Positions 8,800-60,100 of a DNA stretch of 64,000 nt are shown piece after piece (the stretch's first letter is position 1; each line of letters opens with the position of its first letter). Position numbers and translations under genes: made by a program. Source of the stretch: Paralichthys olivaceus. Taxonomy: Eukaryota > Chordata > Actinopteri > Pleuronectiformes > Paralichthyidae. The notes beneath the pieces were generated by a model. It ran no database searches and was not told where the DNA came from. It saw only the letters and a program-made list of their open reading frames with translations. The stretch covers positions 10,490,501 to 10,554,500 of the forward strand of contig NC_091113.1 in the NCBI RefSeq assembly GCF_024713975.1. The letters are read 5' to 3'.

Positions 8800-9174
8800 C
8801 TCATAGAAGACTCATTCATCATGTTGTGATGGTTTTTTCCTCTTTCCCCCAGGGACTGTGATCTGTGAGTGGTCAACATTACTTCTAATTCATTGATTTA
8901 TCATTTGGTCTGTTAATTTTAGAAAATGTGAAAATTGTCATCATTATTTGCTACAGTTCAGGTTTACATTAGTATGACCAACTGAATCATGTAAGAGTAT
9001 GTTTAAAATCTTTTCAAGACTTAGAAAAGCAGCATATGTTATCACTTCAGAAGCTGGAACCAGAGAATTTGATCAACTTAGTAATTGATCAGTTGATCAT
9101 TGCAGCTATAGGAATGCAACTGATTGTGATTTTGTTCTACCCCCTGTTCAGGCTTTTCAGAGGATCTGTAAACC

Positions 9175-12100
9175 ATGGCAATGGGTTTTGCCTGCGTGGC
9201 CTGTCTCTGCCTGGTGGTGGCGATAGTTAGGGGTGAACCCTGCCTCATCATCAGTGAGATCAATGCCGACAACCCGAGACTGGACACCACTGAGTTTGTG
9301 GAGCTGTATCACACCAGTGGACAACGTGCTTCGCTGGAAGGCTACACACTTGTCTTCTATAACGGGAATGGAAATGTAGCCTACAAGGTGCTGGATCTCA
9401 AAGGCCACAGTACAGACGACAGAGGTTTCTTCCTGGTGGGCTCAGTGGACATGCTGCCCAAACCTGCCATCCTCCTGCCTCCCAATACAGTCCAGAACGG
9501 CCCAGACGCCATCGTCCTCTACCACACACCTGCTGCTCGCTACAGTGAGAAGATGAACGTCACGGCTGTCGGGATGGTGGATGCCGTCGTGTACATGACT
9601 CGCCGTACTGGGGGTGCAGAGTTCCTCGCTGAAATGCTGACACCTGGAGAGCCCGCCTTCGTCGAGGACGAGACAACACTTGAGGGGGATGAGTCAATCG
9701 AGAGGTGCCTACTGTCAGAAGACAGGTGGGGCTTTCAGGTGTCCACGCCATCCCCAGGTCAGCGAAACAACTGCACCCCGCCTGCTGCCCCACTAACCAG
9801 TCCTGTCATCACTGAGCTGAAGCTGGGAGGAGGGCAGGTGGAAGGGTTTGTGGAGCTAACAGATGCCCCAGCTGCAGGTCCTCTGGTGCTGGTGGTGTGG
9901 GATGGGAAAACAGACAGGGTCAGTGTGAGTCTGGATGTGAATGTGGAGACCTCCAGGAACCTGCTGATCTCCATGACGATAGAGAAGAACTACATGAAAG
10001 GTCAGTGTGTTGTCAGTCGTCATTATCTTGTTCACTGTAGCTTTTCAGTGCATGAGGAAGTCAACCAATGACTCTTGGTCAATTTGTATTCATTCATTCT
10101 CTTTCGTTTTATCCTAAATTCTTTGTTCCTCTTATGATTTCTTGTCAGGAGATGAGTCTGGGGCAGTAGCCGTTTACAGCGGCAGAGCCTCAGACTTCCC
10201 TGTGGGCAGTCCGCTAAGTCAGATACAGCCTTTAGATGCATTTGTATTTGCCGGACCTGGAAACAAGCCAAGCGCCAACCTCACTGAGACTCTCATCCCC
10301 GGCAGACAGCCGTACCAACTCAGCAACAGGTAAGAAACTATGATCCTATTCCACTGCTATTAAACTGCACGGATTAGACTGGAGTACATGCAAGAAGTAG
10401 AATTAACCAACACTTGTTTGGTGAAACTTGTGATTCTTGATGTGACCATCAGTAAAGGCCAGCTTGCGATTGTTGTTCCTCTTTGCTCATCCTCTTTTCC
10501 TGTGTTTAGACAGTGTCATCACAGTGGAGAAGTAGATCTTACACTGACTCAGAGACCCAAGAAACACAAGACACTATATTACATAACACACATTAACACT
10601 ATACATTATGATACACAGTATTAGAGATTTAAAGCTACGCTAACAGCTCCGTGAGGCTGTGTGTAGATGCAGTTGTGCTTTGAGCAAAGTGCTATTACAA
10701 CAATAACCTGACTTGACTTGATGCTTGTGCTAGAGGACGTTTCAGAGGATTGTCATAGTTTCTACAGTTCATCCTAAAGGGGGCCCGAACAATCGTACCA
10801 AATTCTGTGGCAACCCATAGATGTTGAGAGACTGTAGATCACAGCATTAGTTAGGTTTGACCTATAGGTGGCACTAGAGGAAAAGTCTGGGAATCTGAAG
10901 TAGTGACAATTCATCCTTAAGGCGTTAAAGATATTTTTTTCACTATAAACCAAAAATGTTAGACTGCTGCTGACACTAGAAGAACAGTTTGGTGATCACT
11001 GAAGTCAGGATGAGCCACAAATGTGTGTTGAATGAACTTTATTCTGAAACAAACTGCCATACCACTAGATTTAAGAGACTATTTAAACTTAGTATCAAGA
11101 TCCCTATGCAAAATGTGAATGTATCATCCAACACTAATCAACTGTTTTCTTAGAACCACCAGGGCTGTGCAATATGACCAAAATCTCATATCCCCATATA
11201 GGTCATTTTCAATCCAGATTACAATACATATCACAATCGTGAATAAATGGACATTTTTTATAAATTTAATGTAAATTTTACTGTGTTGTTTTCTTACTGG
11301 AAGAACGCAAAAATTCTTTAGGATCTGTTTGTGAGGGTTGTTTCTTAATGATTTTATTATTTTGTCAGTTTGAGAGAAGGAGGTTTCGACCTGAGTCGTT
11401 GTGGTGTGGCGTCATGGCCCAGAGATCCCGGTGTCTTCTGGGAGGCTCCGCAAACCCCTGGGCTGCCCAACCAGTGCCCCTGGCCAAAGATCTGCCCTCA
11501 CAGTATTGGTGAGTGTTGGAATGACGCTTTAATTCTCTTATCTCCAGATTTTCCTTTAATTTGCTGTTAATACAAAGTTTACAGTGAAAATAAATTCATC
11601 CTGACTTCTGTATGCAGACCAGAAGCCTGTCTGTGAGGTGTTAAGATAAATTTGTGCTGTTTCCTGTTGTGCGTGTGTGTACTTAACGCCCCCAAAGGCC
11701 AGAACTTAAAAACCTAAATTTAAATGTTTTGGTATAAATGGTTTTTGGTATAAAATTTGTTAATTAGCAAGCTGCAGGGGAGCTGGTAGGCCTTTTTGTT
11801 ACCTTTTGAAACAGTCAAGTTAGCTTTTTCCCTCTGTTTCCAGTCATCATGTCAAGCTAAGCTAACCAACTACTGCGTGTGTCTTCATATTGCCATATCT
11901 TCTTAAGAAGGCGAATAAGTGAATTCCTCAAAATGTCACGGTATTCCTTTAACCGCATCTAAGAAATGTCCTCTTTTATGCTCTAGTAAATCCAGGAGGT
12001 GCAGACTCACAGCCTCACCTCCCACCATGGGGGAACAGCGACTTCCTCATCAATGAGCTTAACACTGATACACCAGGCGCAGCTGAGGATGGCGAGTACA

Positions 12101-15100
12101 TCGAGCTTTGGCACCCGTCAGGTCGTCGAGTATCGCTGCAGGGAATCTGGATATTGCTGTTCAGTGTACAGATCAGCAAACCCTACCGGGAGATCAGCCT
12201 GAGTGGACACTTCACTACTTCTAAGGGCTACTTTCTGCTGGGCAGTGATAGGTTGGTGCCGGCTCCATCGCTTCGCCTGCCGCCCAACACCATCCAGAAC
12301 GGGCCAGACGCTGTGGCTCTCTACCGCAGCCCATATGGCCCACCGTCGGCCATGCAGAGGGGGATTCCCACTAAAGGCCTACTGGATGCAGTGGTGTACC
12401 GGCAGAGAGGCTCAGATAAAGAGGCACACGAGCTGAGCAACGCTCTGACCCCAGGACAGCTGCCTCTGTTGGAGGATCCAGAGGTTCTGCCTGGTGATGA
12501 GTCTCTCAGCCGCTGTCGAGGCCTTTACCCCCATGACCTATCTGCTTTTTCAGTGAGTAAAAACACAAGAGATCTCAAAGACAGTCAGTTCCGACAAACT
12601 CTGCTTTTACATAAAGGCAGAAGCAAAACAAACAATTTTCATTTATAAATCCCCTTTTGCCGGGACAGAGACAGAAAGTCAAACTTTCTTTCTGTCTTCT
12701 TTTTAACTCTGTCTGATAACAAGTATTCTTCAAGTTGGTAAAAGACATGCATCTGTCATAGGTGGCTCCACCTACCCCTCTAAGGGAGAATAGCTGCCCC
12801 CGCCCGCCTCCAGCCCCTGAAGGTGTGGTCATCAGTGAGGTGGCCAGCTGCCACTGGACCAATCACAGCCAGCAGAGGGCCTTTGTGGAGCTGCATGGAC
12901 CCCCCATGACAGACCTGCGAGGCCTGGTGCTCTCTGTGTTTGACCAGGAGAGCAGTGGGACCGTCATCGCCCTTCCTCTGACTGGATCGATTGATCAAGA
13001 TGGATTCTACATTGTTGGAAATGTCACTGGAGCAGGTGAGGGTAGTGGGAGACATTGTCATTGAAGGATAGATGACTGATGTAAAAGAAAAATTATCTTT
13101 CCTAGCTCCCTGTTCACAATCATGTCTCTGTCTTCTTATCTTCTCGTCTCTACCACCTCTCACCGTGCTCCTTCACTCCTCTCTGTCCTGCATAGATCAG
13201 ACTTTCCCGCAGGGCTCTACGGTGCCGGTACGAGGGGCGGTAGTCCTGTGCTATGACCTGTTCAGTGTCTGCAGAGCTGGCACGGCTCTGACCAACTCCA
13301 GTCTCAGAGACGTGATCGTGTTCAGTGAAAACCAGCAGCTGCTCTCCTCTCTGTCCACCACCAGAGGGAGACAAGTCATTCCAGCCCTCAGGTAAACACA
13401 GCAAAATCAACAGCAAAAGTTTTACATGATTGAACTTTGAAACCAATTATTAGGTTATAGACCCTGGTTTAAAGACCGTGTGCTGTATAATCTTAGGAGG
13501 AAAGGCACATGTGTTACTAATAACAGTGATGATGGTTCATTGCTTTTACAGTGACCCCATGGCAATTAGCCAATCCCAGGAGCCTGAAGCAGCTAAATAA
13601 AATACAGCCATCATTCTTTGTTGCCAAAGTGATATATCAGGAACAAACATGCATTTGTACGCAAGGATGACTTGATGAGAATTAGGTGGTCAAAAGTCAC
13701 AAAACAACGACTTCTAGAAAGCCAAATGTGTCACAAATGTTCACTAACACTCACCGATTAATTGATAAGATCTGTTGGTCAAAGGTCAAGGTCATGGTGG
13801 TCTCATAAAGTATTATAAATTATAAATAAATAATAAGTATTAAAAGACGTTTTTGGCTTCTTGTACATGACTTCTCAAAAGTGGTTTGAGGGAATTTCTT
13901 TAATATTTGACCATCAAAGATGAACTGATTCATCAAAGATAAACTGATTCAATTTCAGTGGTCAACGATCACAGTGACCTCAGAGTTTTGTGGATATAAT
14001 ATGTCAAGAACATACTGCAGGGTGGTAATTCTGGTAATATTTAGACCTGGGATGTCACTGTCTTTTTCTGTCTTTAAAAGTTGTTTTGTAGGCACTGTTG
14101 CCTCCATTATCATAATAATTCAATACACTTAACATAAATAAATTAGCCATAAAAAAACGTTGCTGCAAAAACAGCAGAAAAAAAAGTCTTACACTGCAAA
14201 TACCACATGTATAATGAGACAGGATTTTGAGGATCAGCTCAGCAGATGATCAGGTTTATGAATCAATTGATCTGCCTTATGTTAATCAATTTAAGCAAAA
14301 GGCTGAACTGAGTGGAACAAAATAACATTTATAAAGCGGGAAATGTTGGTGGGAAATGGTTAAATCAGTCACAATTAACGGAGGATGTGTCGGGGGTTTT
14401 AACACTCATTAGCATTTCCTTTTTCATGGTGGGCAAAGCACGGCCTGTTTAGGCCACAGCACTACTCATATTCCGTTACTGCAGCTCAGCTCACACTTTG
14501 TATTTGATTTAACTTCAGCAAGCAGCAGTTTAAATCTCTATATATAAAATCAGATATGTAAACATACAGTCATTCTAGTTATCCTTGCTTTTTAATCGTC
14601 GGCATCATTATAATGTGAATTCATACATTTCACATGTGTGTGCAGGTCAGTGGAGGATGGTACCGTCTCGCTCAGCCGCTGTTCGTGCTGTGAGGTGAGA
14701 AGCCCCTCCTCCTGGACAAGCTCCTCCCCAACACCCCACAGCACCAACCTCTGCCCGAGCCCCGCCTTCTCTAGTCATATTGACCTTTGCCTCGGACCCC
14801 TGTCCAGTGACTGGCAGGAGCAATCAGGAGGTGAGGCGTCAGACATTAACAAAACATAAATATACAGGCAATGTAAAACAGAACAACGTCAAAGGTGAAC
14901 GATATTTAATCCCAACACAGGAACATTCTTTATCAAAAATGTTCTTGTCTTTTGTTTGTCAAAAATCTGAATTCTGCCAATATTTTTTTTACTCTCCTGG
15001 TTATGACATGATAAATATGCCTGTGTGCAAGTTGACAGCTGCTCGTGTGTTTTCCACAGACTGCAGTAGTCTGATTCAGGGGAAGAGGGTCGCTGAGGTG

Positions 15101-24785: not shown

Positions 24786-27700
24786 ATGGAGAAGACAGCG
24801 CATTACGATTCTATCCTGGACCGCAGCAAACGCATCACATGGCAGGATGACTGCTACGTGGATCTTCAGTCTACATCCTGTCCACTCTCCTCACAAGCAG
24901 AAACAGAGGGTAAGAGTTTACTCAACAGATTGATTGAGGAGGTGTGTTTCCCCAAACTCTTATCTTCTCCTTTTTGCCTTTTGTTTTTTAAAAGCATGTA
25001 GGATGGTACACAGCGATTAATGCAAAGACCAAATACAATAGAAGAGAAATTATAATGGCAACCAGTCCTGACTAGAAGGTGGATGGGACAATCATAATGG
25101 TAAAGAAAGTGCTTTTTCATTCTACCCAGAAGGGATGAGTCTCGCTGAATATTCTGAGGAGAATTTAGGGACACTAGCCAAAATGTTACCTTTCAGGTGT
25201 GGATAGTTTTAAATTAAATAATCTAAATCCTTTGAATGTGTTTATTTTATCCAGATGTCCAGAGCAGGGGTGAAACTTTTCATTGATGAGATCTTTGTCT
25301 GAAATTGATGCATGTTGTATGTGGTCGGTAAATATGTACTGTTTGAAAAGGCTGGAGAGAGATCTATGAGGTTAACCCTAACCCTGTCAGTATGTTTCAA
25401 AACCACTGAGGATAATTGCGGAACAGATCAGCTGCTGTACAAAAGCAAGTTGAAATTCATCATTACTAAACCAGCGTTTGAAATTTTAAATCAGTTGAAT
25501 GTTTTGCCCTCAAATCAACTGAATAACAGAGATAAAGAGTTGGAAGTGTATTAGGGTTAAGGAGTTTGTTATCCTTTGACATGATCCAATCATTTATATA
25601 GTCACTGATTGGGTAAGGAAAAGAGAAATTAAAAAGAATAATAGACTGTTCACAGAATACAGAAAATGTGTCATTGTGAAGCTTGATTGGCCCACGCAAC
25701 AGAAGAAGTGAAGTACAAAAAGGCTAAATATATAAATTGGAATACTGCCCTTCAATATTGTTGGTTATGTGAGGCAGTAGGAAACAAATCAATCTCCAGT
25801 TGAATAGCTTTCTCTGCACTGTGCTTTGTTTTGGCTTAGATCTTGGCTGGATCCAAAAGCATCAGGATCAGCTGCAACGCTTCACTACGGCCTCCTTCCT
25901 AGAGGGGATGTTAACCCACCTGAGAAAGATGGATGTGCTGAGTTTAACAGAGGAGACCAAGATCAAGGAAGCAGGCCGGCTGCAGGATCAGGTTAACATG
26001 CTCACAACTGTCATCACTAGCAAGGACACCCAAGACTCTGATGCTCTCCAGGGTTTCATAGAGAGCTCAGATTCTGAGGTGGCTCAGCTCATCATCAACC
26101 ACGGTAAGCGACTTGAAATGGGATTGGCTCCTTTTGTTGTTCAAAGTGTGTTAGTAGTTTAGCTCATGTCGAAGATCAGATCCCCAAGTAATGGAACAGT
26201 TGTGTTTCTATTCCTGAGATATTGATATTGAGTCCCAATCTGCTCTTCATGTGCTGTTCAGTGTCTTTCTTAGTATATAAATGTTTGCTGGTAAAATTGT
26301 AACACATTGTAAAGTAATTTGCACCAGTGCTATCCATTTCCTGCTCTAATGTATTGGCAAACAATAAAATTGTCATTTTCATTCACTGCAGATTACATGG
26401 TGAAGGAACACAAAGAGGTGCTTTTACGTCAGTATGAGCAGTACAGAGACAGAGATTCAGTCAGCTGCCTCAAACTGAACATCTCCTCAAGAAACTTACT
26501 TCTGGTCGATGGACTCTCTGACCTCCAGCAAAAGGAACATGACCTAATGCAAGTGGGTGCAACTCGAGGAAGGAAAAGAAATCATCTCAGACAGCTGGGG
26601 CTGACCAAGCATCTGGAGCCCCTGACCCGCGTCAGTTTGCCTCCCAGGGTCTCCCTCACAGTTGGGGTTGCTGGTATCGGCAAGACCACCTGGGTCCGAC
26701 ACTTCATCAGACAGTGGAGCCAGGGGGTCATTTGTACAGACGTGAGCTTTGTCTTACCTATTACCTTTTCTGAGCTGAACTCACTGGAGAAGCTTTCAGC
26801 CGAGAAACTGGTGAAAACAGCTTTTCCTCATTTAACAGACCCCAGTCTGGTCCTGAGCAGGTCCTGTCGGACACTTCTAATACTTGAAGGTTTGGATGAA
26901 TTCCGCTGCGCTTTAAATTTCTCTGATGCAGCACCCTGCGATGACCCAAAGAAAGAGGTGTCCATTGATGACTTAGTTACTAATATCATCCGGGGGAATC
27001 TGCTCCCTGACATCGCAGTGTGGGTGACTTCCAGGCCTGGAGTGGCCTCACTCGTCCCTGGAGGACTCGTAGACAGGGTGACTGAGATCCCAGGATTTAG
27101 CCCCAAAGATATCCAGATCTTCCTGAACCACCACATCTCTGAGAGGGATTTTGCCACGAAAATATGGGAACACTTGGAGTCCCATAAGATTCTAATGGTG
27201 ATGTGCTACATACCGTGCATTTGCTGGATAGTAGCTGATACTCTGATGTACATCATGCAGAGTGGAACACAAGAAAGCCTTCCAAGGACTTGCACTGAGC
27301 TTTACGCCCACTTCTGTTCCATGAAAGCAGAGGTTGGCGAACCAAGAGGCAGGGAGAATGTAAAACTGGAGCAGCTTCATGGGAGTAATCGTAAACTGCT
27401 TGGGAATCTTGGACGACTGGCCTTTTATGGGCTCCTCAAGCACAAGTACAGCTTCAGTGAGCAGGACCTCAGGGCTTATGGAATAGATCTACTCTTGACT
27501 CAGAGCAGTCTTGGTACAGGAGTTCTTGTTCGGGAGGAGACGGCCATATGCGTAACATACCGGTTCACTCATCTGACTCTGCAGGAGTTCCTTGCAGCAA
27601 CTTTCTACCATGTTTCCTCCAAGCGGGCAATCTTTGACTTGTTCTCGGAAAGCACCATGTCCTGGCCCAAAATTGGTTTCCAAAACCACTTCAGAAGTGC

Positions 27701-30700
27701 CTTTCAGCATGCACAACAAGCTGAAGATGGGCATTTGGATGTGTTTGTGCGCTTTCTGACAGGCCTGCTGTGCCCAGCAGCACTGAAACCTCTTGCTGGG
27801 CTATTATCCCTCGGGAAAGATGATGGTAATCAAAAGGCCTGGGCAGCAGGGTTTTTACAAAGCCTCTTGGTCAGCGGGGGTGTGGTGGTGTCCCTGCGCA
27901 CAGTCAACCTGGCTTATTGTTTACAGGAGCTGCAACACATAGAGCTGCTGCGGAGTGTAGAGGAAGATTTAAGGCTTGGTAGCCTTGCAGGGAAATTAAC
28001 ACGGGCTCACTGTGTTGTGCTGGGATATCTGCTGCACGTGTCTCCAGAGTGCAGTGAACAGACCAACCTAACAGGCTCTTTGAACTACGCCACAGTGAAA
28101 TGTTTGCTCCCACAGCTGCTGTACTGCAGCAACCTCAGGTCATCTCTTTGCACTGTCCCTCAATAACCCCAGCGTCAGGAGAAAAACTGGAGTGTGAAAC
28201 TAGTGTTTTAATCTGTTCAACAGGTTAGAGAACAATCACTTCAAAGATGACGTCATGGAATTACTGGGGAGCCTGCTAAGTGCCAAAGACTGCCACATTC
28301 AGAGGATAAGGTGAGGTGTCACTTACATTTCCACCCCTTACTCTTCTACTACTTCTATTACTACAGCTGAATATTTCTGACCTGTATCAAATGAAGTTGC
28401 ATTACATTCCTTGTCATTTGGCGGACGCTTTTATCCAAAGCAATTTACAGTTAATGCATTCAACATCTATGAAGGGCCATTTAGGGGTTCAGTATCTTGC
28501 CCAAGAACACTTCAGCATGCAAATGGAGAAGACTGAGGATCAACCACCGACCTTCTGGTTGGAGAACGACCACTCTACCCCTCAGCCACAGCCAAGATGC
28601 CTGATTAGTTATTATTTCTTATTAGCCTTTTTGATTAAAAGGGTGTAATCGACACTCAGAGAATATTATTTGATCGTAGGATTGGGTTGCAATGATGATG
28701 AATGTGATTATCATTAGCATTGTATACCGTCTATAATTGTAACCCCTGTTTTTCGCCCCCTCAGTTTGGCAGAGAACGCCATCAGCAACAAAGGTGCCAA
28801 AGCACTGAGTCGAGCCCTCCTGGTGAACCGGACTCTAACTTCTCTGAAGTGAGAGCTTGTTTGTTTCCTTTGAAATATGAGTCATTACAATTAAGTAACC
28901 AACCACAGGTTTTTTAAATTCAAAAGTGGAAATGGTGTATTCATAAAAATGAAAAACACACTAGAGGTTAAAACCTGTCATATCCTTTACATTTTACAAT
29001 GATGTAAATTAATTCAGCACTCGTGGATAATACATTACAACATATTCAGTGTTGCCTTTGGTTTGTCACTATATTATTGAATTATTTTACAAGATTCATG
29101 CCGGAGATGATTATACTGCAGATAAAAGATATTATACAATAAAGCTACACCAGACAGTTTTGTTCTAAGGCTGTTTAGTCATATCAATGAATGGGAAAGC
29201 AGAAAAAGGCAAAATTCACTCTTTATTTTAGAGAAACACGTAATTCCTAAGTGGAGTAGTTTTCCCAAGATTCTGTTCCCTAAAGTTTATTTGAGGATTT
29301 CTTTACACAATCATTTTGTCTCTGAATGTTGCTGTTACTGTACCTTGCTGTGTGTCATCTAATCCCTTATTTATAACTTAGTCTCCGGAACAACAACATC
29401 GGCTCTAAAGGTGCAAAGTTTCTGGCAGAAGCTCTGAAAATGAACCAAGTCCTGGTATCAATCAAGTGAGTGTGATTCCTGTAGATCTTAGTTGATGTAC
29501 ACAACAATCAAACAAACTGCCCGTATAACTCTCCAATATCCTGAACCCCTCACCAGCTTTCAGAACAACGCCATTGAGGAGGAAGGGGCTCAAGCCCTCG
29601 CAGAAGTGCTGCAGTGCAATCGCAAACTGGTGTCTCTGAAGTGAGTCTGGCCTTGGCTTGACTTGTTTGTTGCACATCCTTTGTATCATTATATACGGAG
29701 TAATGAGTAAAATTATCTTTGATGGATGTGTTGATTCAGTTTACGGAAGAACTCAGTCAGAGCAGGAGGAGCCAAAGGGATTGCGGATGCGCTGAAGACA
29801 AACCGGACTCTTACCAAACTGATGTAACTCTTATATTCATTCTCTTTGCAGATCATGAATATGCAGAATGATACTCTGCTTTACATTCTGTTGAGCTGGA
29901 ATAATTATGCAGATATTTTTATATTCAGTCCAGTGGATTAGGAGTGAAAGCTGCTTTGTTTACAGATTGACATTTAGGGGTGCATTAGCTCACCAATAGA
30001 TTACCCTAGCTTCTTTATCATTGAAAGAGTATTTCATGTCATTTAATGCTCCTCAAGGTCAATAACTTTATTCTCAATGCTCCTATTGTGTGTCTGTTTG
30101 TCTTATATCTGCAGCCTTTGTAGCAACCAGCTTGGAGATAAAGGAACAATTGCCCTGGCAGAGGCTTTGACTCACAACCACACTCTGCTCTCACTTCAGT
30201 CAGTGTCTTATATTCAAAAGTCTGCTGCTGATATATTTTCTTCACATTTAGTTCACACAGAATTAAACCATGAACCAGTTTGTCTTTCAAATTACATTGC
30301 AGTCGTGTTTATCCTTTATTCTGCAGACTTCAGAGTAACTCAATCAGCAACAGGGGGATGACTGCCTTAACCAAAGCACTCAGGCTGAACCGAGGTCTTG
30401 TCTCCTTAAAGTGAGTATGAAAACGTAGAGTTTTGGGACAACCAGGTGAGCTGGTTCCCCCTTTTCCCCAGCGTCACACAGTGCTAAGCTAAGCTGCAAC
30501 TTCACATCAACTACAAAGACCTTAAAGTGGTATTGACCTTTTCTTTCTCAAAAAGAATAACAACCTTATTTCCCAAATGCACTTATACGTTACTTGTGTA
30601 CTTATATGTCGTCTGTGTAATTGTATGTCGCTTGTGTTTTTACATAGAGCTTGTGTACTTACAACCCCCTTGTGTCGCTGTGATCTTATGTAGCTTGTAA

Positions 30701-40986: not shown

Positions 40987-43900
40987 ATGTCTGCAGGGAT
41001 GGACAGGACACGAGACATAATGGCATTGACCTGTCTGATATTTCTCAAAATGCTAAAGGTTAGATTTAATTTCCACTTCTGCTTTTCTTTTTCAAAGAAA
41101 TGATCAGCAATGATGACTTTTAAAGTAACTCATCTGCAGAACTTTTAATCACCAGAAATTTCTTCAAGGAAAGCTTTGTAAAATATTTGACATGAAAGTG
41201 AAGGGATGTTTCCTGAAGTGTCTCTTTGTCCTTACAGTTTGAGATGGCCAGTGGAAAAGTCCTTGAGGAAACTTATCAGAAGTGGGTCCAGTACAAAGAA
41301 GATTGTGTGAAAATGATATTAAATGAGCCGCTGCCTCAAGGTATGGAGCAACCTCGTTCAAGTACTGACTCGAAAAAGGAAATTAGGAAAATTTCAAATC
41401 ATGCCATTTAAAATAACATCACAAAGGAACATCCGTGGCTTTGTTTTCATATTATTGTCATTCTTCCTTCTTATTCTTTTTAGTGGGCTTCTTCTGCAAC
41501 AGGACATTTGACAAATACGCCTGCTGGCCAGATACTCCCGCCGGCTCTGTAGTCAACATCTCGTGTCCTTTCTACTTGCCCTGGTATGACAAAGGTAAAT
41601 CACACTCTTAATGAGTCTTTGACAGAATAGACAAACTAAAAATGAAACACATACATTTTCTTATCCTTTGAGGGTCACAGGAGAAAGTGGGGCTAATCCC
41701 AGGTGACCAGGTGGTGTACACCCTCGACTGGTAGCTAACACATCGCAGGTCCAACCGTTCATGTTCCCACCTAAAGAAATGTAGAGTCTTTAATTAACCC
41801 CAAAATGCAAGGGAAGAAGCAGAAGAAAACACACACAGAAAGACCCTGGCTCATCTGTATAAATGTTCACTTTGTCAATCAAAACCAGTCCAGGCTGTTC
41901 AACTGTCCTCCTGCCCTGCACATGCTGTGATTGGCTTCAACCCCCTGTGACCCTAATTAGAAATAAGCGGCTGATGACTGACATAACATTGCACCGACTG
42001 ACTGCTTCTCCTCCAGTGTCGCAGGGAGTTGTGAGTCGGAGTTGCGGCTCTGACGCCCTCTGGAAGAGAGATGACAGCGGGCAGGTGTGGAGAGACATGT
42101 CCCAGTGTGAGGAGGAGAAGGAGGTCACGTCTCAGGAGGTGCGGCAAACCAAAATGTCACCAGCTAGACATTTAATTTGTTGCAACTGTGAGCACTTGTG
42201 TCATTCATGTCACAGAGGATGCAGGTCCTCACGTCTAAATGGAAAAGAACACAATCTGAAGTAGCTGATATACAATGAGTGTGGAGGCAAAAGAAGGATA
42301 AACATGTTTATTTTGATTTGTATGTTTTTATAGATACACAAGTCCCCAACCTGCATTTGTACAGAGTCATTAAAAATGTCACTTAACCATAAGTGAAGGG
42401 ATGGAGCAAATTCCAGAGCTTTGAAATCCCAGTGGTGGAATTGAAAACACAATCCATTTTACTAGTTACTGTACTTTTGTATATTTTTCTGTACTTTACT
42501 ACATTTATTCTCAGGTACTTTTCACTTTTACTCCACCACACATATCACCAATTATCTGTAATCAGTAACAAGAGAGGAATCAGTCGTCTCATCCAATCAG
42601 AGCAGGCGGGCATCATTAGACCCCACCTTCTGCAGCAGCAGCAGCAACACAGGAAACAGTAGAAGCTGGAGACAGCCGGTTGATTTCTGAGGCAGTTTTG
42701 TGATTTAGTTGTGACAGTAAATTGAGTTGGCTGGAGGAAAATGTTAAGAGACATTTAGACTGTGAAACCACAGCAAGACGTCTAAACCTCTAACATATCC
42801 AGAACAGCACGTAGGTGCCAGATATGCTACACGGCCAGATGCCATCCCTTTATTTTTATCTGGGGTTCTTTATTAGCAAATTATTTATCATGTGTGAGTG
42901 TGTCCACAGAGGAGAGGTGTGATGAGGTTATAACTTTCAGCTCACACTTTTTCTAAAGATAAACTTTCCAGACACCAGATATTAATTAAATCTCATGAAT
43001 GTTTCATGAAACACAAATTGGTCCACACTGAAAACTATTATTTGCAAATTTGATATCCCTTAGGTATAGTTTATACTTTACTATACAGTATATGGTATAA
43101 TAGTGAAGTTATTTTTGTGATCTGACATCCAAAACATTGACCTGTGTGGATTTGTATTTACAGCTGTGGTTCAAACAACTGATGGTGAGCTTCAGGATGT
43201 TGTACACTGTCGGCTATTCCCTGTCCCTCTTCACACTCGTCACAGCTCTTATCATTCTTCTGAGCTTCAGGTGAGTTGTCTTAACACATGTGCAATCACT
43301 TCTGCTCTCATATTAACGCGTCAGACACATCTCACCTGTTCTTTGACGGATGCAGCGAGAGATGCTTAAAATGAAATGATATGAATATCATTAAACAGTT
43401 TAGAATGGACGCTGCAAGAAAAGAAAGAGAAAAATAGATACATACAAAAACATTATATTTATCCATTATTTATATCCCCTGACAGGAAACTGCATTGCTT
43501 CAGGAACTACATCCACGCAAACCTTTTCCTCTCCTTCATCCTGCGAGCTGTTTCCGTCATCATTAAGGACACCATGCTCGATCGCCACTGGGGACGAGAA
43601 ATCATGAAGCAGACGGACGTGAGAGAGATGCTCAGCCACCAGGTGGGTCTGTAGCTAACCACTAAATGTCACCATTGGATATATCATATTTGGAGCCGAC
43701 ACATTCACTTACTTTAATTAAACATTAGACTTTTGCAGTAATGTCGCTTTTTATGTCCTTTTCGTCCAGGCTGCTATTGGCTGCAGGATAGCACAGGTGA
43801 TGATGCAGTACTGTGTTCTAGCCAATCACTCTTGGCTCTTCGGAGAGGCCATTTATTTGTACTCGGTGCTCATAGCATCAGTGTTCATGGACAACAACAA

Positions 43901-46377
43901 ATACTTGCGTTACATCTTACTTGGCTGGGGTGAGTTCCATCTTTGTGTGTGTCCAAATTAACAAACGGCAGTTTACCTGCAAGCTGTTAGCTTTAAAATG
44001 CAACTTCTCCTAACACCAAAAAGCATCGCAGAGGTATGGAGCTGCTCACATTCAAAAAAGCAGGCACGTTGGAACAGTAGAGACTTCATCAGTGTCACTT
44101 GACTCCCCTCTCTTGTGTGGCCATTAATACCTGCACAAATAAATATGGTTATTTGACAGTAAAGCATGCCCTTTGTATTGCTTTTATAGATGGATGCCAT
44201 GGAATCATACGTACACTGTTAGTTCTCAATTACACTCTTGCGATGGTTGCTGCTTTAATTTTAGGAACACCGCTTCTATTTGTGGTTCCCTGGGTGGTGA
44301 TGAAGCTCTTGAAAGAAAACAAAGAGTAAGTGTGTGAGTGTTGTGTGTTAGTGTGTGTGAGTGTGTGTGAGTGTGTGTGTGTGTAGCATCTCCAGATGCC
44401 TGATTGCTTCATATGTAGACCTCTTACCACTGTTGATTCATATAGGACAATGGAGATAATCTGTTTTTCTTTCCAGGTGCTGGGCTCTTAATGAGAACAT
44501 GAGCTACTGGTGGATCATTCGTTTCCCCATTCTTTTTGCATCACTAGTAAGGATACAAATAATCTACTCACTATTTGCCTGAATCTCTTGTGTGTAACTA
44601 CTTCTGACATTAAGTTTTAAAAAAAAGTATATGACCTAAAATAGCAACATCTTTTGCAGCAGATGATACAGCAATTCATATTTGCATTTTCTGATGAACA
44701 GATCAACTTTCTGATTTTCATGAAGATCCTGAAGGTCATCCTTTCCAAATTACGAGCCAACAACCAGACCGGATACCCTGATTACAAACTTCGGCAAGCT
44801 GTCTCATATTTTTCTTCATGATATACTATTGTAGTGCCCTGTTTGGAATGATCTGATTATTGGCCTGTGGTAATGTTTCTCATAAAGTTAAACTGAATGT
44901 GCTTTATTACCGTTCATGTGTGTGGCTGGTATGTTTAAATGATTTTCTTGACTGGTGTTAATGTAACTCTTGTGATCTGGTCTTTTTGAAGCAAATTGTA
45001 CTTACTTGGCTTTGTACCTCTGGTTGAATGCATTTATTTTAAGGCGTTTTGGATAAAAGCATCAGCTAAATGAAATGTAATGTATTGTAATGTAAGCAAC
45101 TGACAGAATTTTAACCTTTCAAAATATTCGCTCAGTAATCTTGCTCGATACAAAGCATTACAGCAAAAACAAACACTGTGCTTTTACTTTAAAGAGAACA
45201 GTCATTTGTGGAATTAGGAGATTAATAGATGTTATTTGTTCGACTGATGGCTATCATAGAAATGCAATGATGAATTTTGGCAGGAGGAGTCATAGGTGCG
45301 TGTGTATATATACATGACAAATGCTGTTTGATTTGTCTCTTCAGGCTCGCCAAGGCAACGCTCACCCTCATTCCTCTGTTCGGGATTCATGAGATCGTAT
45401 TCATTTTTGCTACAGATGAGCAGACGACAGGCATTCTGCGCTACACCAAGGTTTTCTTCACCCTGTTTCTCAATTCATTTCAGGTGGGTTCAGTTGGACA
45501 AAAGAATCAATGCTTGGTCTTAATAGTGTGTCAGACGGAGTAGAACAATTTAACTTACTAGACATTATCTAATGTGTTCATGCATGATGAATGTTGGACA
45601 TGTCTCTGGAACTTAAGACGTTTCTCAAAATCTGGCCTCTCTGCAGGGTTTTCTGGTGGCTGTGCTCTACTGCTATGCCAATAACGAGGTTTGTGCTTTA
45701 TCTCATATAATCTCATTCTAATTTCTTTTGTACATATATTTTTTAACTTAAATATAAGGTAGGCCACTGATTAGACATTAGCTCTATTGTCCCTGTCTTT
45801 GAGAGACAACATACATGAATTCACAGGTGTAAAGTTTAAATATTGTTAATAATCCTGAAAATTGGGTGATTTTAATTCATCCCCTGAAGAAGACACTGAA
45901 GTGTTGTCAGATGGAGATTTGCAGCTGATCAGATCTTTTAAGGATGCACTTAAATAAAGAGACTTACTAGAATGGCACTCAGCAGAGTTCATACCTCCTC
46001 CTATGCTCACAGCTACCAGTCCTCTTAATATGCTTCATTTTCCTAATTAAGATCCATGAGATCCCTGGAAAATCAATGACAGTGTCAAAAAAAAAAAAAC
46101 CACATCCCACGATTGTAAAGAAAGAAAAATTAATTGATCAATATAGATTTGTTGTTGCTTTATATTCAGAGTTGTTGTTTTTTTCTCTTTCTTTATTTTT
46201 CAGGTGGCTAATTGATCAGTATCTCAGTGAATGAGGCTCTAGTTTTAATCAGATAGGAAAATGTCACAGAATGTCACATTAACTCTGAAATGTCTGTGGG
46301 TGCAGGTGAGGACAGAGCTGAGGAGGAAGTTCCGCAGCTGGAGGATCGAGGCAGAGATTGTGTGCTGCGGACAATGA
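40987..46377 (+). CDS. Class B1 GPCR, glucagon-receptor subfamily (probably GRLR/GCRPR), 435 aa to the first stop
   Basis: Exons: 40987-41058, 41238-41340, 41484-41594, 42017-42138, 43164-43270, 43486-43642, 43770-43929, 44265-44325, 44477-44546, 44702-44793, 45345-45483, 45647-45688, 46306-46377. They total 1308 nt in frame. The 42-nt penultimate exon is typical of the family. After a signal peptide, the extracellular domain has six cysteines (EDC, FFC, YAC, ISC, RSC, SQC) and [16 protein letters not shown]. The seven-helix core has [59 protein letters not shown] and [11 protein letters not shown]. Family members bind glucagon-like peptides and mainly signal through Gs/cAMP. TM3 reads [16 protein letters not shown] where relatives usually have NYxWLLVEGxYLHxLL. 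Intron 10 is GC-AG. The first-stop form has only about 20 residues after TM7, much shorter than relatives. It could also be GIPR- or GLP2R-like; GRLR is favoured by sequence mix and gene neighbours. Confidence 0.9.
41667..41790 (+). repeat. Degraded L2-type repeat in receptor intron
   Basis: 'GGGGCTAATCCCAGGTGACC' and 'GGTGTACACCCTCGACTGGT' correspond to the 725-985 repeat. It lies in the intron 41595-42016. Confidence 0.5.
42436..42545 (+). repeat. Dispersed 'TACTTTTACTCCACCACA' repeat in receptor intron
   Basis: 'TACTGTACTTTTGTATATTT' and 'GGTACTTTTCACTTTTACTC' then 'CACCACA' mark a common fish repeat. It lies in the 1025-bp intron 42139-43163. A short CAG/CAA run is at 42633-42650, and nothing else is recognised there. 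Confidence 0.55.
44330..44384 (+). repeat. (GT)n microsatellite in receptor intron
   Basis: An imperfect GT/GAGT/GTTA run begins 5 nt after the donor GTAAGT at 44326. Confidence 0.9.
45003..45095 (-). mobile_element. Inverted SINE-like fragment in the GC-AG intron
   Basis: Read on the minus strand it gives 'CATTTAGCTGATGCTTTTAT' then 'CCAAAACGCC' and 'AATGCATTCAAC', matching the start of the 28396 repeat. A small (TAATG)-like tail is also present. Confidence 0.65.
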
Positions 46378-46401
46378 CTAGCCGTGCTCGACTCTCGAGC
46401 A
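46372..46401 (+). promoter_or_regulatory. Putative stop-codon readthrough signal: CAA TGA CTAG plus stem-loop
   Basis: The stop is CAA TGA CTA GCC. UGA followed by CUAG is the context shown to give efficient readthrough in several mammalian mRNAs, and a CAA codon before the stop also favours it. Seven nucleotides after the stop a perfect hairpin begins: arm TGCTCGA (46385-46391), loop CTC, arm TCGAGCA (46395-46401). Stems at about this distance stimulate readthrough in alphavirus-type signals. The hairpin is short and could be chance. Confidence 0.55.
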
Positions 46402-46710
46402 GATACTTTCTCCATCGCCACAGTGCCAGAGCGCAACAGATCCTCTGCCATAATGATGAGGGCACTGCCTGATGGTTCACCGATCCCTGAGTGTTTGCTG
46501 ATCTCCAGGCAGGAATTTCAGCCAGCGTCTCCACAACCTGATGCATCTCTGCTGCACCATCCATCAGTGGTCAACAGAGAAAACGACCTTCAGCACAGGA
46601 ATCATGACGAGACTGGAGAATCGTCTGTGGCCATGCAGGTGTCCTTCCTCATTCACCTTCAGGACCCTGTGGAGTTACTCCCAAATGTTGTAGATGTAGA
46701 TTCAGACTGA
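46378..46710 (+). CDS. In-frame 110-codon extension after the receptor stop, putative readthrough tail
   Basis: The same frame as the receptor continues after TGA 46375-46377 for 110 sense codons to TGA 46708-46710. The peptide begins LAVLDSRADTF. It is hydrophilic and rich in Ser, Asp, Glu and Pro, with clusters such as ERNRSSA, ETGESSVAMQ and a VDVDSD end. That composition suits the cytoplasmic tail of a class B receptor, where relatives carry tails much longer than the 20 residues before the TGA. There is no acceptor that cleanly skips the TGA while keeping the upstream coding. A canonical AATAAA follows at 46805-46810. Readthrough, a recent nonsense change and a sequence error are all possible; the stop context favours readthrough. 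The total product would be about 546 residues. Confidence 0.55.
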   Translation, partial: LAVLDSRADTFSIATVPERNRSSAIMMRALPDGSPIPECLLISRQEFQPASPQPDASLLHHPSVVNRENDLQHRNHDETGESSVAMQVSFLIHLQDPVELLPNVVDVDSD

Positions 46711-46804: not shown

Positions 46805-46810
46805 AATAAA
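46805..46810 (+). terminator. Polyadenylation signal of the receptor gene
   Basis: AATAAA 95 nt after the second stop codon. It is followed by a moderately T/G-containing stretch. It places the whole 110-codon extension inside the last exon of the mRNA. Confidence 0.6.
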
Positions 46811-54100: not shown

Positions 54101-57100
54101 GTAAACCTGGGTGAATACAATCAACAATCAATGGACTTCACCGATGTGGCTTTTGAGGAGGGAATCTCCTCCAACCATCATCCTGATGATCAAACACTGT
54201 GAGTGAGCAAACACGTCACTCAAACCAAACCATGAGAGTTCACTCAGCATTATAAGAAATATAAATTTGATCTGGATATAGTGAAATTGTTATAATTAGA
54301 TAACTCTTCCTGCTATGACTATCTTCCCATAGATTTGCCAGCAGTCGCAGTGGCCATATCTTTGAGGTGGACTACAGCAGAGTAGTTATTAGAAATGTGA
54401 GGAGACTGTTGCCTGCACTGCAGCAGCATGCAGACCGCAGAGACAAATTGACTTTTAACAAAGGTGGGTCTGAATCATTTGGAGCAAGAAAATGTTTATT
54501 TAATATTTTGAAGCAGAGGTTGGTTAGAGAGAAAATGTAATATGCAAAGAGCCTGTGAAGACATCAGTTTGTGTGTTTTTGTGTCACAGGTCCCGGCATC
54601 GCCATCAACAGCATCAGTGTGTCCTCGTCATTCTGTGCCACTGGCTCTGAAGACGGCTTCCTGCGTCTGTGGCCCCTTGATTTTTCTGCTGTCTTCCTGG
54701 AGGCTGGTAAGCACAGCAGGGTTAGGCATGACATTTAACTGCAGCATACTAACTGTAGGGGACAGTTCCAGCTCCACAGTCGTGTGAGATGATCTCACTT
54801 CATGTATGTTTAGAAAGCAGTTTTTTTAGTGTAAGGTTGCATCTGTCCTCGATGACCGCGCCAAGAAGGTTTTAAAGGAGCCTGAGAACTGGAAGTGAAG
54901 AGTTTCACACCATGATTGAATGATTTAATTTGTATGTATATAAACCGGCAGTTATCAGTGTATGCACTTTACATATATATCACTCAGGTTTTAAACTAAT
55001 TTAACTAGAATAATATGAAGTAGAAACTTTCTTTTCTACCCAATTACTTCATCTCAAAGAATGTAGCAGGTGCATTATTCTCTTCTGTAGCATGAATTCT
55101 GCTACTTTGAAGCAGCTGGAATTGGATTATTCGAAATAATAGAAAAATATAAACAAAGTGCACAGACTTTATAATCAAATATGAAATGTTCCCTCTCACA
55201 TCCTCATACAGAGCAATCACTCAAACACATGTCATCGTTTTCCAGAGCACGAGGGACCTGTGAGCCTGGTGTCCGTCTCATCGGACAGTCTTCAGGTCCT
55301 GGCAGCCACCTCAAACGGTATCCTGGGTTTCCTTGATGTGAGCAGCCACGGGTACAACACACTGATGAGGTCCCACACGGACGCTGTGCTTGGCTTCAGT
55401 GTGGACGGCATCCGTCGGCATCTCACAACTGCCTCTTCCGACGGCACAGTGCGCATTTGGAATATGGATACCTTACAGCAGGTCAATCAATGTCAAGTCT
55501 ATTTCTTTTTTCATAATTTCATTGACGAGATACTATCTTTCAGTTTGTTGAACCAGACAAAAGGCTCAAATCTGTGTTTGCTGTTCACAATCTCACTTTA
55601 GAGAAAATAGACATTGGTATTCTTTTTTCAGTTTTACTTTCTCTGCTGAAGCAAGACCACGTCAGGCTCTGTTCATTCTCTCTTTTAATTTAGTTTGTGA
55701 TTTATACAAAAAGAAAGAGATAAACATTTTATATTGTCTGGTTTTATTTGAAAAACCATCCACCATTGTCTCATTTACTCTCTAAGACTGATTAAATTAA
55801 CATTACTCTCCAAGATATTTCTGATATTCTTCTCATTATATTTTGTACAGATTAACAGTCCATATATGTAGAGATTCTGGGTGATTATAGCATCTTTTAA
55901 ATTATTCTGATAACTAATTTGAGTTCCTGCAGTGTCTCCAATATGTTTGGACTGAAGAAATTAGCATTATCTTTGACCTATTTACCGTTGAGCTGAACGC
56001 CTGTCTTGTGTCTTGTGTTTAGCTTTACGACTTTGTGTCTGAGGACAGCCCCTGTTCAGTGGCTTTCCATCCCAGTGAGCAGGTCTTCTCTTGTGGCTCA
56101 AGCTCGGGCGTCATCAGGGTCTTTGACATCTCAAGTGCTAAACTGTTGGCTGAACACAAGTACGTCTGAATTAACACAGTATATAATGCTTAAAATACAC
56201 TATAACTTGACTAGAATAGTAAGTTGGCCTTGATATTAAGGGGCACATTTGATGTAGATAACAGGTATGGTCCACACTGTCAAATGAATATGTGAAATTT
56301 ATTTCTCAGCATTTATGTTTCTGTTTACAAACAGTATTAATATATTACAGGCATCACAGAGGTGAAGTGGTGGGTCTTGCCTTCTCTCCAGATGGGGAGT
56401 TCATGTACACAGCTGACTCTCAGGGCTCTCTTGCTCTTTACAACTCCTCTGAGGATGAGCACAATGTCATCAGAGTTGTATGTATGTACACACACGCACG
56501 CACACACAAACATGCCTCAAGATAATTGTAGTAGATCATACGTTACACTTAATCTTACCATAAACCATTCATGCAGGCACATCATTTAATTTCATTAGCT
56601 AGCCAACACAATGAGATATTGCTTGCACTGACTTTACTCTAAAGCTTACTAGTTTGAGTCATAGTTGGTATATCAGAATGCCACATTTATCACCGTTGTT
56701 AGATTCACTCTGTATCTGATTTCCTAGGTAATGTGGTGGCCCGAGGCACGGAGCGTGCTCCAGACGCTCTTACCGTGCGCAGTGACAGCAGCTGTCTGGC
56801 TTTTGTCGGTCCCTCCGAGTACATAGTCACTATTGCTGACGCACGATCTCTGGATGAGGTATCTCACACATTTGCATTGCTCTGGTAAATTAAATGAATG
56901 AGATTTCACTTCATGAGTAGTGAGGCAGCATCACTCTTTCATTATGTGGGTTTCTCTTATGGGTCCGACTGACACATGTCATCCATACCCAGTTGCTCCA
57001 TGTGGATGTGAGTATTTTGGACGTGGAAAGCCCTCGTCTGGATTCTGCACTGAAGGTCTGCTTCTCTCTGGCCTCCACTGAACATCTGCTGATTGCAACA

Positions 57101-60100
57101 TCTGCAAACAAAATCCTCTGGGTTAGCACTAAGACAGGCCGTCTGCTCCGAGAGGTAACACCACAGATGTGCAAATTTTTTTGCAAGGTTTTTGTCTATT
57201 TGTTGAAAGTGTATAAGATAAAGCAGTTCCTCTGCTTTATCTTATACACTTACGTGTTTAAAAAGGTTTAGTAACGGTCAGTACTGCCAGTAGAACATTA
57301 GATAACCTGACAGAGAGACTGAAGACAAGAAGCTCACAGAGTAGATGAATGTGGAATGTGTGTCTGCAGCAACAGTAACAAGAGGCCAAGGGTTTTGATA
57401 TCACAGGTTGTATATACACAATCATTTGATGCAATTTTCAGTTATATTTCAGAGTTTGTTTTTGTTTTCCTTACAGATGTCGAAGGTTCACAAACACCAG
57501 ATCTCATCCTTGGCTGTGAGTGAGGACAGTCGATTCCTGCTGACTGCAGGACACAATGCTGTTAAAGTGTGGGATTATAACATGCAGCTCAACTCACAGG
57601 TAGTGACCAATTAGATCATTTTTACCTTTTACTATTTGTGGCTAAAATGTAAACCATACATTCTCTAGAGATTTAGATTTTATTAAGTAACTCCTGCAGC
57701 TATGTGTATTTTACAAGTTTGAGTCATTAGAATGGGATTGCTTTGTGACTGAACACAATGCAAAGTGCACTGACACAAATTTAATTTTACAGCCAATGAT
57801 TTACAATTTCAACATGTAGTCGTAATAACAGGGAGGCAGCTAACAAGTATTATCATTTACAATCAATCTATTGATGATTTTCTCCATAAAGTGATGAACT
57901 GTCTGGTCTCTAAAATAAAATAAAAAAATGTTTCCTGTTTGGTCTTGCCTCCAGTCTAGAACACAATTCAGCTATGTAGATATTTTATCATCACAAATAA
58001 AAAAAAGAATAAATGATCACATTTCTGAACCAGAGTATTATTGTCAGTTAGCTTGAAAAACTGCAAACACGTTTTTCTAACGTCAGCCATGTTCATCTTT
58101 TACTGGGCAAATCGTTATGGGTGTTTGGCTCGGTTGTTATGGTAACTGGTGTTGTCTTCAGCTAAGCTAGAGTAACCTAATCAAATAGCTTAATACTATG
58201 AATACTTAAATATAGCAAAGTAACTTTCTTCACAATAATTAGACATGTGTTTCTCTGGATCAGATGTTTATAGGCCACAGTCAGCCTATCTGCCAGGTGA
58301 GCTTCACCCCGGACCAAATGGGTGTAGTCTCAGTGGGAGACGCCATATTTCTGTGGGACTTCCTGGCGCATTCTGGTTACTCTTTGACTAACAGCAGGTA
58401 ATAATCTGTTTGATATTAAAGTCTTGTGTGTTATGCTTCATGAGTTTTATTGGTAAGTTTCCAATTCGCTCTGTCTTCACTCACAGTTTGCCTCCCAGAG
58501 TAAACCACACCTCTGCCCCTAAATCAGGTACATTAACATTGCAGTCATTTAAATGCTAGAATAAAACAGAATGTACCTGATCCAAATCTTCTGATTAATT
58601 TCAATGTTTCTTTGTTTTCTGTTTTCATGTTACAGTTCATCCAGATGTTGCAGTGACTGAAGTTCAGTTGTCCAATGGGATGCCTCGACAGAAAGCACCC
58701 CTCCCTTCCTCACCACCTCCACATCTGGATGTCAGCACGACCAACCAAGCTGACCAGGCTGGTAAGTTCTGACGCTGTGACAGACGTCCTATTAAACTTG
58801 CCCGATTTTAGATAAATGGTTATGATCAGCCCGGCCAATTCAGGATGGGGGACAGACTCATCTGTAAGAACATGAGCTGTAAATACAGTGTTAAGAGTTT
58901 ACTGTACAAAAATATACAACTTTCTGAGCCTCCCAGCTGATTTCTGTCAGATCTGCCTAAAAAATGATCAGGAGTGTCTCTTTAAAATACAGAGACACAA
59001 GCATATTTTAAGCACAACATTTTAATGGTCTCACTGATGTAAACCTCAGTATCTCAGCCTTTAAAGCCAAACCACAATAGTTGCTTAGCAACACCAAGAT
59101 TTATGTGGCACACTTTGACTCAGAATGTGTTTGTTGCTAATGGCTACAATGGACAATGTTCAGTGGATGCAGGGACATTGATTATAAGGATTATGGGTCC
59201 GTATTTCCTGAAGCTTGACTGATTGGTGGAAGTGTACGACTGTGAGAACTGTTGGGTTTCTCTATTTTAAATAAGATTTTAAGGTCTTGACTGTCTATGT
59301 AAAGTGCCTTGAGATAATGTATATTATGATTGGGCGCTTTATATATAAAATTGAATTGAATTCATTGTAGTTTCTCTCTCCTGCAGCTTTTGGCTCCTTG
59401 TCTCTTTGTGAAGAGACCCCAACCATCACAACTATTCCAGGCCCAGCCACTTGTTCAGGTCCGTCATCTGACCCCAGATCTGCCACATCCTTCCTCAAAG
59501 TTACAGAGTTGGTCAACACACCTTCCCTCAATAGCAGCCATAATGACACTAGTAAGTGCTCCACTGCACTATTTCATATTTGCAGCGAACTGACTCTTTT
59601 CTTCTGCTGTTGTACGTCTTCATAGCATTATCTCGTTTTTTAATTGTATTTATGCTGTTTTGTTATTAAGTTCAGTCAAAAGGGAAGAAGCCAGTACGCC
59701 CAGATTGTTACAGGCACTTTATCCCACGTTTCAAGCCCTCCACTGTTGATCAGGTAAAGAACACTTTGTATTATAATGAACTGTAGTCACAGAGTGCATT
59801 GAAATTCTTGCTCTCCAGTCTGACTGTTTTCTCTGATTCAGGCTGCTGTGGCTCCCATGCCAGGAGAGGAGGGCATCAAGCTGAAAGCAGTGATTGGCTA
59901 CAATGGCAATGGGCGTGGCAACATGGTGTGGAGCCCTGACCAAGGTTATTATCATATTGTTATTCACTAAATAAACTTCAACTGAAAAGTCAAATTAAAA
60001 TTTAAAAAAATCATAAAGCTAAGTTGGTGAAGGTTGTTGTCTTATCCTGCAATTAATTTTTCTAGGTTTATTTGCATACTCGTGTGGCTGCGTGGTGGTG

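Follow-up and report, generated by a model that had tools for sequence, protein, structure and literature searches.

Few vertebrate genes are known to use stop-codon readthrough (PMC5868278), and the closest described systems carry a UGA stop followed by CUAG, the motif of OPRL1, OPRK1, MAPK10 and AQP4 (Loughran 2014, PMC4132726). According to that report, reporters in HEK-293T cells gave readthrough of ∼31, 13, 14 and 7% for OPRL1, OPRK1, MAPK10 and AQP4, respectively, and 1.5% for UGA-CUA alone, and the 12 nt after the stop were enough for readthrough in the four genes. VDR is a further receptor with UGA-CUAG at its stop, with an extension of 67 residues and 6.7% readthrough (PMC5868278). 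The locus analysed here has the same stop and motif as OPRL1, OPRK1, AQP4 and MAPK10 together with a conserved C-terminal extension, and OPRL1 and OPRK1 are likewise G protein-coupled receptors (PMC4132726). In contrast to these opioid-type receptors, the AQP4 channel and the MAPK10 kinase, it encodes a class B hormone receptor, with readthrough predicted from sequence. The opioid-type receptors belong to class A. The tail described here is present in many fish lineages, whereas for the VDR extension the evidence of constraint was weak and confined to Old World monkeys (PMC5868278). Our main reading, to which we give a probability of roughly 85%, is that functional UGA-CUAG readthrough would yield a short and a long form of the receptor.

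The window is the whole 64,000-nt stretch of Paralichthys olivaceus DNA that was analysed, and the following features are given in its coordinates.

40987..46377, forward strand: short-form coding sequence assigned to GCRPR (GRLR, glucagon receptor-like), 13 coding exons, start ATG at 40987
40987-41058, 41238-41340, 41484-41594, 42017-42138 and 43164-43270, forward strand: GCRPR exons 1-5, from the spliced frame
43486-43642, 43770-43929, 44190-44325, 44477-44546 and 44702-44793 (GC donor), forward strand: GCRPR exons 6-10, from the spliced frame
45345-45483, 45647-45688 and 46306-46377, forward strand: GCRPR exons 11-13, from the spliced frame, exon 13 being the last coding exon
46306..46374, forward strand: short-form cytoplasmic tail in the last exon, 23 residues, with the CaaX-like end CCGQ
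46375-46377 and 46378-46381, forward strand: UGA stop and CUAG motif in the window sequence, the motif as in Loughran 2014 (PMC4132726)
46378..46707, forward strand: 110-codon extension, an open frame with homologous tails in P0001/P0038 and 20 ENA/Logan ORFs
46385..46401, forward strand: hairpin of doubtful function, beginning 7 nt past the stop, 7-bp stem TGCTCGA/TCGAGCA, 3-nt loop CTC
46405..46446, forward strand: first conserved tail block from the tail alignment, TFSIATVPERNRSS
46630..46707, forward strand: second conserved tail block from the tail alignment, AMQVSFLIHLQDPVELLPNVVDVDSD, with DPVELL (acidic dileucine-like); also in Merluccius P0049, there without the dileucine
46708-46710, forward strand: second stop, TGA, in the window sequence
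46805..46810, forward strand: AATAAA polyadenylation-signal-like hexamer, with 94 nt between it and the second stop

The spliced model gave a clean frame with AG acceptors and 12 donors, all GT except one GC, and its products have 460 aa in the short form and 571 residues in the long form. The GC donor, a rarer splice type, belongs to exon 10 (44702-44793) and reads CTTCG/gcaagc. When the long form with X at the stop was used as the protein query, 8000 candidates were scored and 1684 passed E<=1e-10; among the best 120 of these 1684, fish glucagon receptor-like proteins came first, followed by bird, reptile, coelacanth, lungfish and amphibian proteins. The order and names of the best matches, together with PMC3679108, which reports GCRPR from medaka, fugu, tetraodon, stickleback, chicken, anole and Xenopus and its absence in mammals and zebrafish, identify the gene, by its best hits, as a presumed GCRPR/GRLR. 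HRM and 7tm_2 domains were found in the relative P0001, on which, and not on the window protein, the domain scan was run, and positions 43722-43961, which contain exon 7, matched solved class B receptors. The initial annotation had called the gene a glucagon-family class B receptor with about 20 residues past TM7 in the short form; the best matches and the exon 7 region agree with the former, and the 23 tail residues of the last exon with the latter. A search of the genome with exon 11 found seven places, its own locus among them. Elsewhere in the window, a gene for an NLR-type immune receptor lies upstream of the GPCR, at 25773-28163; its first ORF has a CARD domain, and the next one has NACHT, NOD2 winged helix and NLRC4 HD2 domains. 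Two ORFs at 9172-12645 have weak lamin-tail-domain matches below the Pfam cut-off (E 4e-7 and 0.01), the first opening like a signal peptide, and at 55185-57268 there are WD40 ORFs, the second of which matches the second beta-propeller of WDR90/POC16 above the Pfam cut-off.

The stop context at 46372-46381 of the window sequence is CAA TGA CTAG, and so contains UGA-CUAG in full. As previously noted for this DNA, the frame then remains open for 110 codons (46378-46707) up to the TGA at 46708-46710, and the perfect 7-bp stem with a 3-nt loop is present 7 nt after the stop, at 46385-46401; the AATAAA placed 95 nt past the second stop begins at 46805, with 94 nt intervening. The 100 nt from the stop folded no better than dinucleotide shuffles (z +0.21, with 111 of 200 shuffles equally good), so the hairpin is unremarkable. 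It was rejected as a readthrough stimulator on this result and because 12 nt after the stop sufficed in PMC4132726. The readthrough account works without it.

A short end near the seventh helix could be scored in 85 of the 120 listed relatives, from ray-finned fish to birds; the remaining 35 proteins, Antennarius and Merluccius included, lacked the anchor or ran on elsewhere. The short form ended in Gln at the place of the stop in 74 of the 85 scored rows, which are related species and not independent events, and 57 ended in CC[G/A/T/S]Q (CCGQ 33, CCAQ 14, CCTQ 8, CCSQ 2, besides other ends); 11 of the 85 had non-Gln ends. Cys was found at -4 in 76 of the 85, the window protein having CCGQ, and in six rows Gln was kept though this Cys was lost (RHAQ in three, and HFGQ, IFVQ and ILVQ). 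The Gln codon at 46372-46374, kept in 74 of 85 rows including those six without Cys, may be preserved because of the stop context or because of a CaaX end. Judged by these protein ends, the stop position is old across the listed relatives, and since 74 of the 85 scored relatives share it, the stop is neither a sequence error nor a private, species-specific nonsense change, the doubt that the initial annotation had asked to be checked.

The chance of 110 open codons was P ∼0.011 with the tail's own base composition and P ∼0.0001 with the composition found beyond the second stop (20,000 random draws for each), and stop-to-stop intervals of at least 110 codons in the window numbered 16 of 3387 on the forward strand and 12 of 3528 on the reverse, true genes counted. 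GC content was 0.57 for the part of the last exon that precedes the stop, 0.52 for the tail and 0.36 for the following 400 bases, and the base composition thus steps at the second stop. The tail had no domain in Pfam at E<=1 and no structural relative in the PDB at E<=10, and among four scored candidates for a second copy in the same genome only the tail itself was recovered, the others having E 0.5 or worse. Pattern matches in viral and prokaryote contigs (11 and 94, respectively) included no relative.

Homologous tails were found in other fishes. Among 97 candidates in the tail-region search, the tail was carried only by Antennarius striatus (frogfish) models X2 and X3, in which Trp occupies the stop position and the tail is 59% identical across all 110 residues (E 2e-25). 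P0049 of Merluccius (hake) has the last block, MQVSFLIHLPDPVE, but is without the first. A second tail query built from conserved pieces gave 23 short candidates, 20 of which matched the tail at E 1.1e-3 or better (P0121-P0140, ORFs on Logan and ENA contigs). Sixteen of these 20 end at the second stop, three read W there, and P0128 continues past it in other sequence. The tail varies in length by lineage, and both blocks remain in one frame in the rows that hold both; in 11 of the 14 columns of the first block, the commonest residue occurs in at least 0.84 of the tails covering them. The first stop is crossed by five of the 20 ORFs, with W in P0122, P0127, P0129 and P0135 and with R in P0123. 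The residue after the stop is Leu in all five, in P0001 and in the window, and the five and P0001 have Leu-Ala or Leu-Gly. P0122, P0129 and P0135 have W at the second stop too and then run on, as would be expected if the ORF caller had translated genomic TGA under TGA=W. The opening residues of P0127 and P0129 resemble a translated intron, so that these two look genomic. P0135 is similar to the tilapia receptor P0022 across the last exon. For the medaka model P0114, which is read in another frame, manual decoding with the frame set by P0103 implied CAG, T[A/G]A and then C at the stop site. A sense codon thus seems to be present at the stop in two lineages, Antennarius (W) and P0123 (R), and since both keep the tail, the stop was apparently lost at a time when the tail already had a function. 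Orthologues with a sense codon had been named as evidence against readthrough; two such lineages do appear to exist, but the stop is shared by 74 of the 85 scored relatives and both exceptions retain the tail. The earlier idea that the in-frame extension matters as protein agrees with the tails of Antennarius, the last block in hake and the 20 ORFs, and the aligned tails indicate that the post-stop sequence is conserved as protein in many fish lineages, from the first codon after the stop.

One rival view is that alternative splicing takes out the UGA and so gives access to the tail, the stop form being merely one splice form. In the annotated Merluccius model P0049, the receptor is joined to a tail that has the conserved end but not the first block, and four AGs (exon starts 46382-46424) match GC donors within the last exon in phase, but GC-donor introns that retain the first block could not exceed 69 nt. 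Between the stop and 46429, every AG is out of phase both with exon 12 and with all GT donors of the last exon; therefore no ordinary splice around the TGA, such as had been named for checking, keeps the conserved start of the tail. Pyrimidine-rich in-phase acceptors occur only from 46432 onward, and their use would skip the first block. All five stop-spanning ORFs go straight on with Leu-Ala/Gly, and Antennarius alone was found among the 97 tail-region candidates, so that we consider splicing very unlikely.

A-to-I RNA editing, which would convert UGA to UGG (Trp) and so make the long form, is suggested by the Trp at this site in Antennarius, P0122, P0127, P0129 and P0135. However, P0122, P0129 and P0135, with W at the second stop as well, look like genomic TGA translated under TGA=W, and the intron-like starts of P0127 and P0129 also point to genomic sequence. 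Editing leaves the CUAG context unexplained, and we find it scarcely probable.

The tail sequence might also be conserved without being translated, as a 3′ UTR element or as the remnant of a long-tailed ancestor. A few residues past the second stop could be aligned in P0122, P0129 and P0135, and conservation of the DNA may therefore reach into the UTR. The tails were compared with neutral evolution of the window DNA on the protein tree, at a matched mean identity of 0.554, in 200 runs without indels; 19 near-complete tails including the window and P0001 were used, and P0128, P0131 and P0133, all three of which start mid-tail, were excluded, as was P0049. All 19 tails were stop-free in 0 of 200 runs at matched identity (on average 16 of 19 were broken, with a minimum of 8) and again in 0 of 200 at under half that divergence, a comparison weakened by ORF-caller frames that are open by construction and by a query assembled from conserved blocks. 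At matched identity, the best 20-column conservation was 0.887 versus a simulated maximum of 0.839, and the spread of conservation over columns was 0.207 versus a simulated maximum of 0.182, so that the block structure exceeds the simulation; at lower divergence (scale 0.15), the mean simulated 20-column conservation exceeds the observed value. BLOSUM scores at differing tail sites were not above neutral, with 48 of 200 simulations reaching the observed value, a result that speaks for the untranslated alternative. Against this stand the frame, held despite changes in length, the second stop shared by 16 of the 20 ORFs, the GC step at that stop and the clean tail in both apparent stop-loss lineages, and the untranslated alternative is in our view highly improbable. 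Least probable of all is an independent small protein initiated inside the last exon: ORF callers set starts in the tail and tail column 30 is M in 8 of 21 rows, but 8 of 21 is also the highest count for any Met column ahead of the second block, five of 22 rows (P0126, P0132, P0133, P0135 and P0138) have no Met there except the caller's first residue, and conservation extends to the first codon past the stop.

Conservation from that first codon, the lack of a fitting acceptor and the lack of a kept Met together argue that translation most simply enters the tail from upstream, through the UGA. The readthrough interpretation of the initial annotation thus gains from the shared stop, the protein-level conservation of the tail and the absence of a fitting splice. 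By readthrough, the receptor mRNA would carry a leaky UGA stop at which most ribosomes would terminate, giving the receptor of 460 residues with CCGQ at its end. A fraction of ribosomes, several per cent by analogy, would insert an amino acid at the UGA of UGA-CUAG and go on translating up to the second UGA, producing the 571-residue receptor with the 110-residue tail. The residue inserted at a UGA that is read through is usually Trp, Arg or Cys.

The likeliest role of the long tail would be altered trafficking or desensitisation, because the long form gains DPVELL and Ser/Thr sites and loses the free Cys-containing C-terminus. RxRS kinase-like sites are present in the tail of some lineages. 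For the arrestin, GRK or trafficking function proposed earlier, the tail offers motif support only. An acidic dileucine, a motif chosen after seeing the data, occurs at one column in 17 of 19 tails, which 7 of 1000 column shuffles reach; it is missing at that column in P0131, P0132, P0137 and P0049. The tail also has a Ser/Thr cluster, and 13 of 16 rows that cover the homologous position have the arrestin phospho-code pattern TxSxxT there, but because 128 of 1000 column shuffles did as well, an arrestin code is not claimed.

The short end resembles that of the prostacyclin receptor, which is farnesylated at its C-terminal CaaX, CSLC, in ending in a CaaX-type tetrapeptide, here CCGQ, CCAQ, CCTQ or CCSQ (PMC3566133). 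Unlike the prostacyclin receptor, the receptor here has a candidate CaaX end, and in some fish the Cys at -4 is gone (RHAQ, HFGQ, IFVQ and ILVQ). In yeast, the CASQ end of Ydj1p is farnesylated and kept uncleaved (PMC5014548), and a yeast screen reported broad farnesyltransferase reactivity over CXXX (PMC10320760), with none of CCGQ, CCAQ and CCTQ named in the text of that paper as searched. That the short form is prenylated would be a guess by analogy. More speculatively, and doubtful as a whole, readthrough might act as a lipid-to-sorting switch, in which the short CC[G/A/T/S]Q end would be farnesylated and anchored, while the long form would bury that end and add a phosphorylatable dileucine tail. 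One mRNA would then set constant proportions of two receptors that signal for different lengths of time, and the conserved Gln codon would have a part in the CaaX end as well as in the stop context.

Readthrough in this or any other class B receptor was not found among the titles and abstract openings listed by searches that covered few subscription papers and preprints. The main text of PMC3679108 contains "stop codon" 0 times, and no long form of GCRPR was met in it. The CUAG searches that we met in the literature covered human genes, and mammals are reported to be without this receptor (PMC3679108), which would therefore be invisible to mammalian screens. The published pharmacology of cloned fish receptors may, we infer, mainly describe the short form. 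If the readthrough reading is true, the UGA-CUAG set would gain a class B hormone receptor whose extension of 110 residues is conserved in many fish lineages, and readthrough would represent a new way of switching the behaviour of this receptor. The effect of a readthrough tail on receptor signalling would then be testable, with the frogfish and the P0123 lineage as natural versions that are always long.
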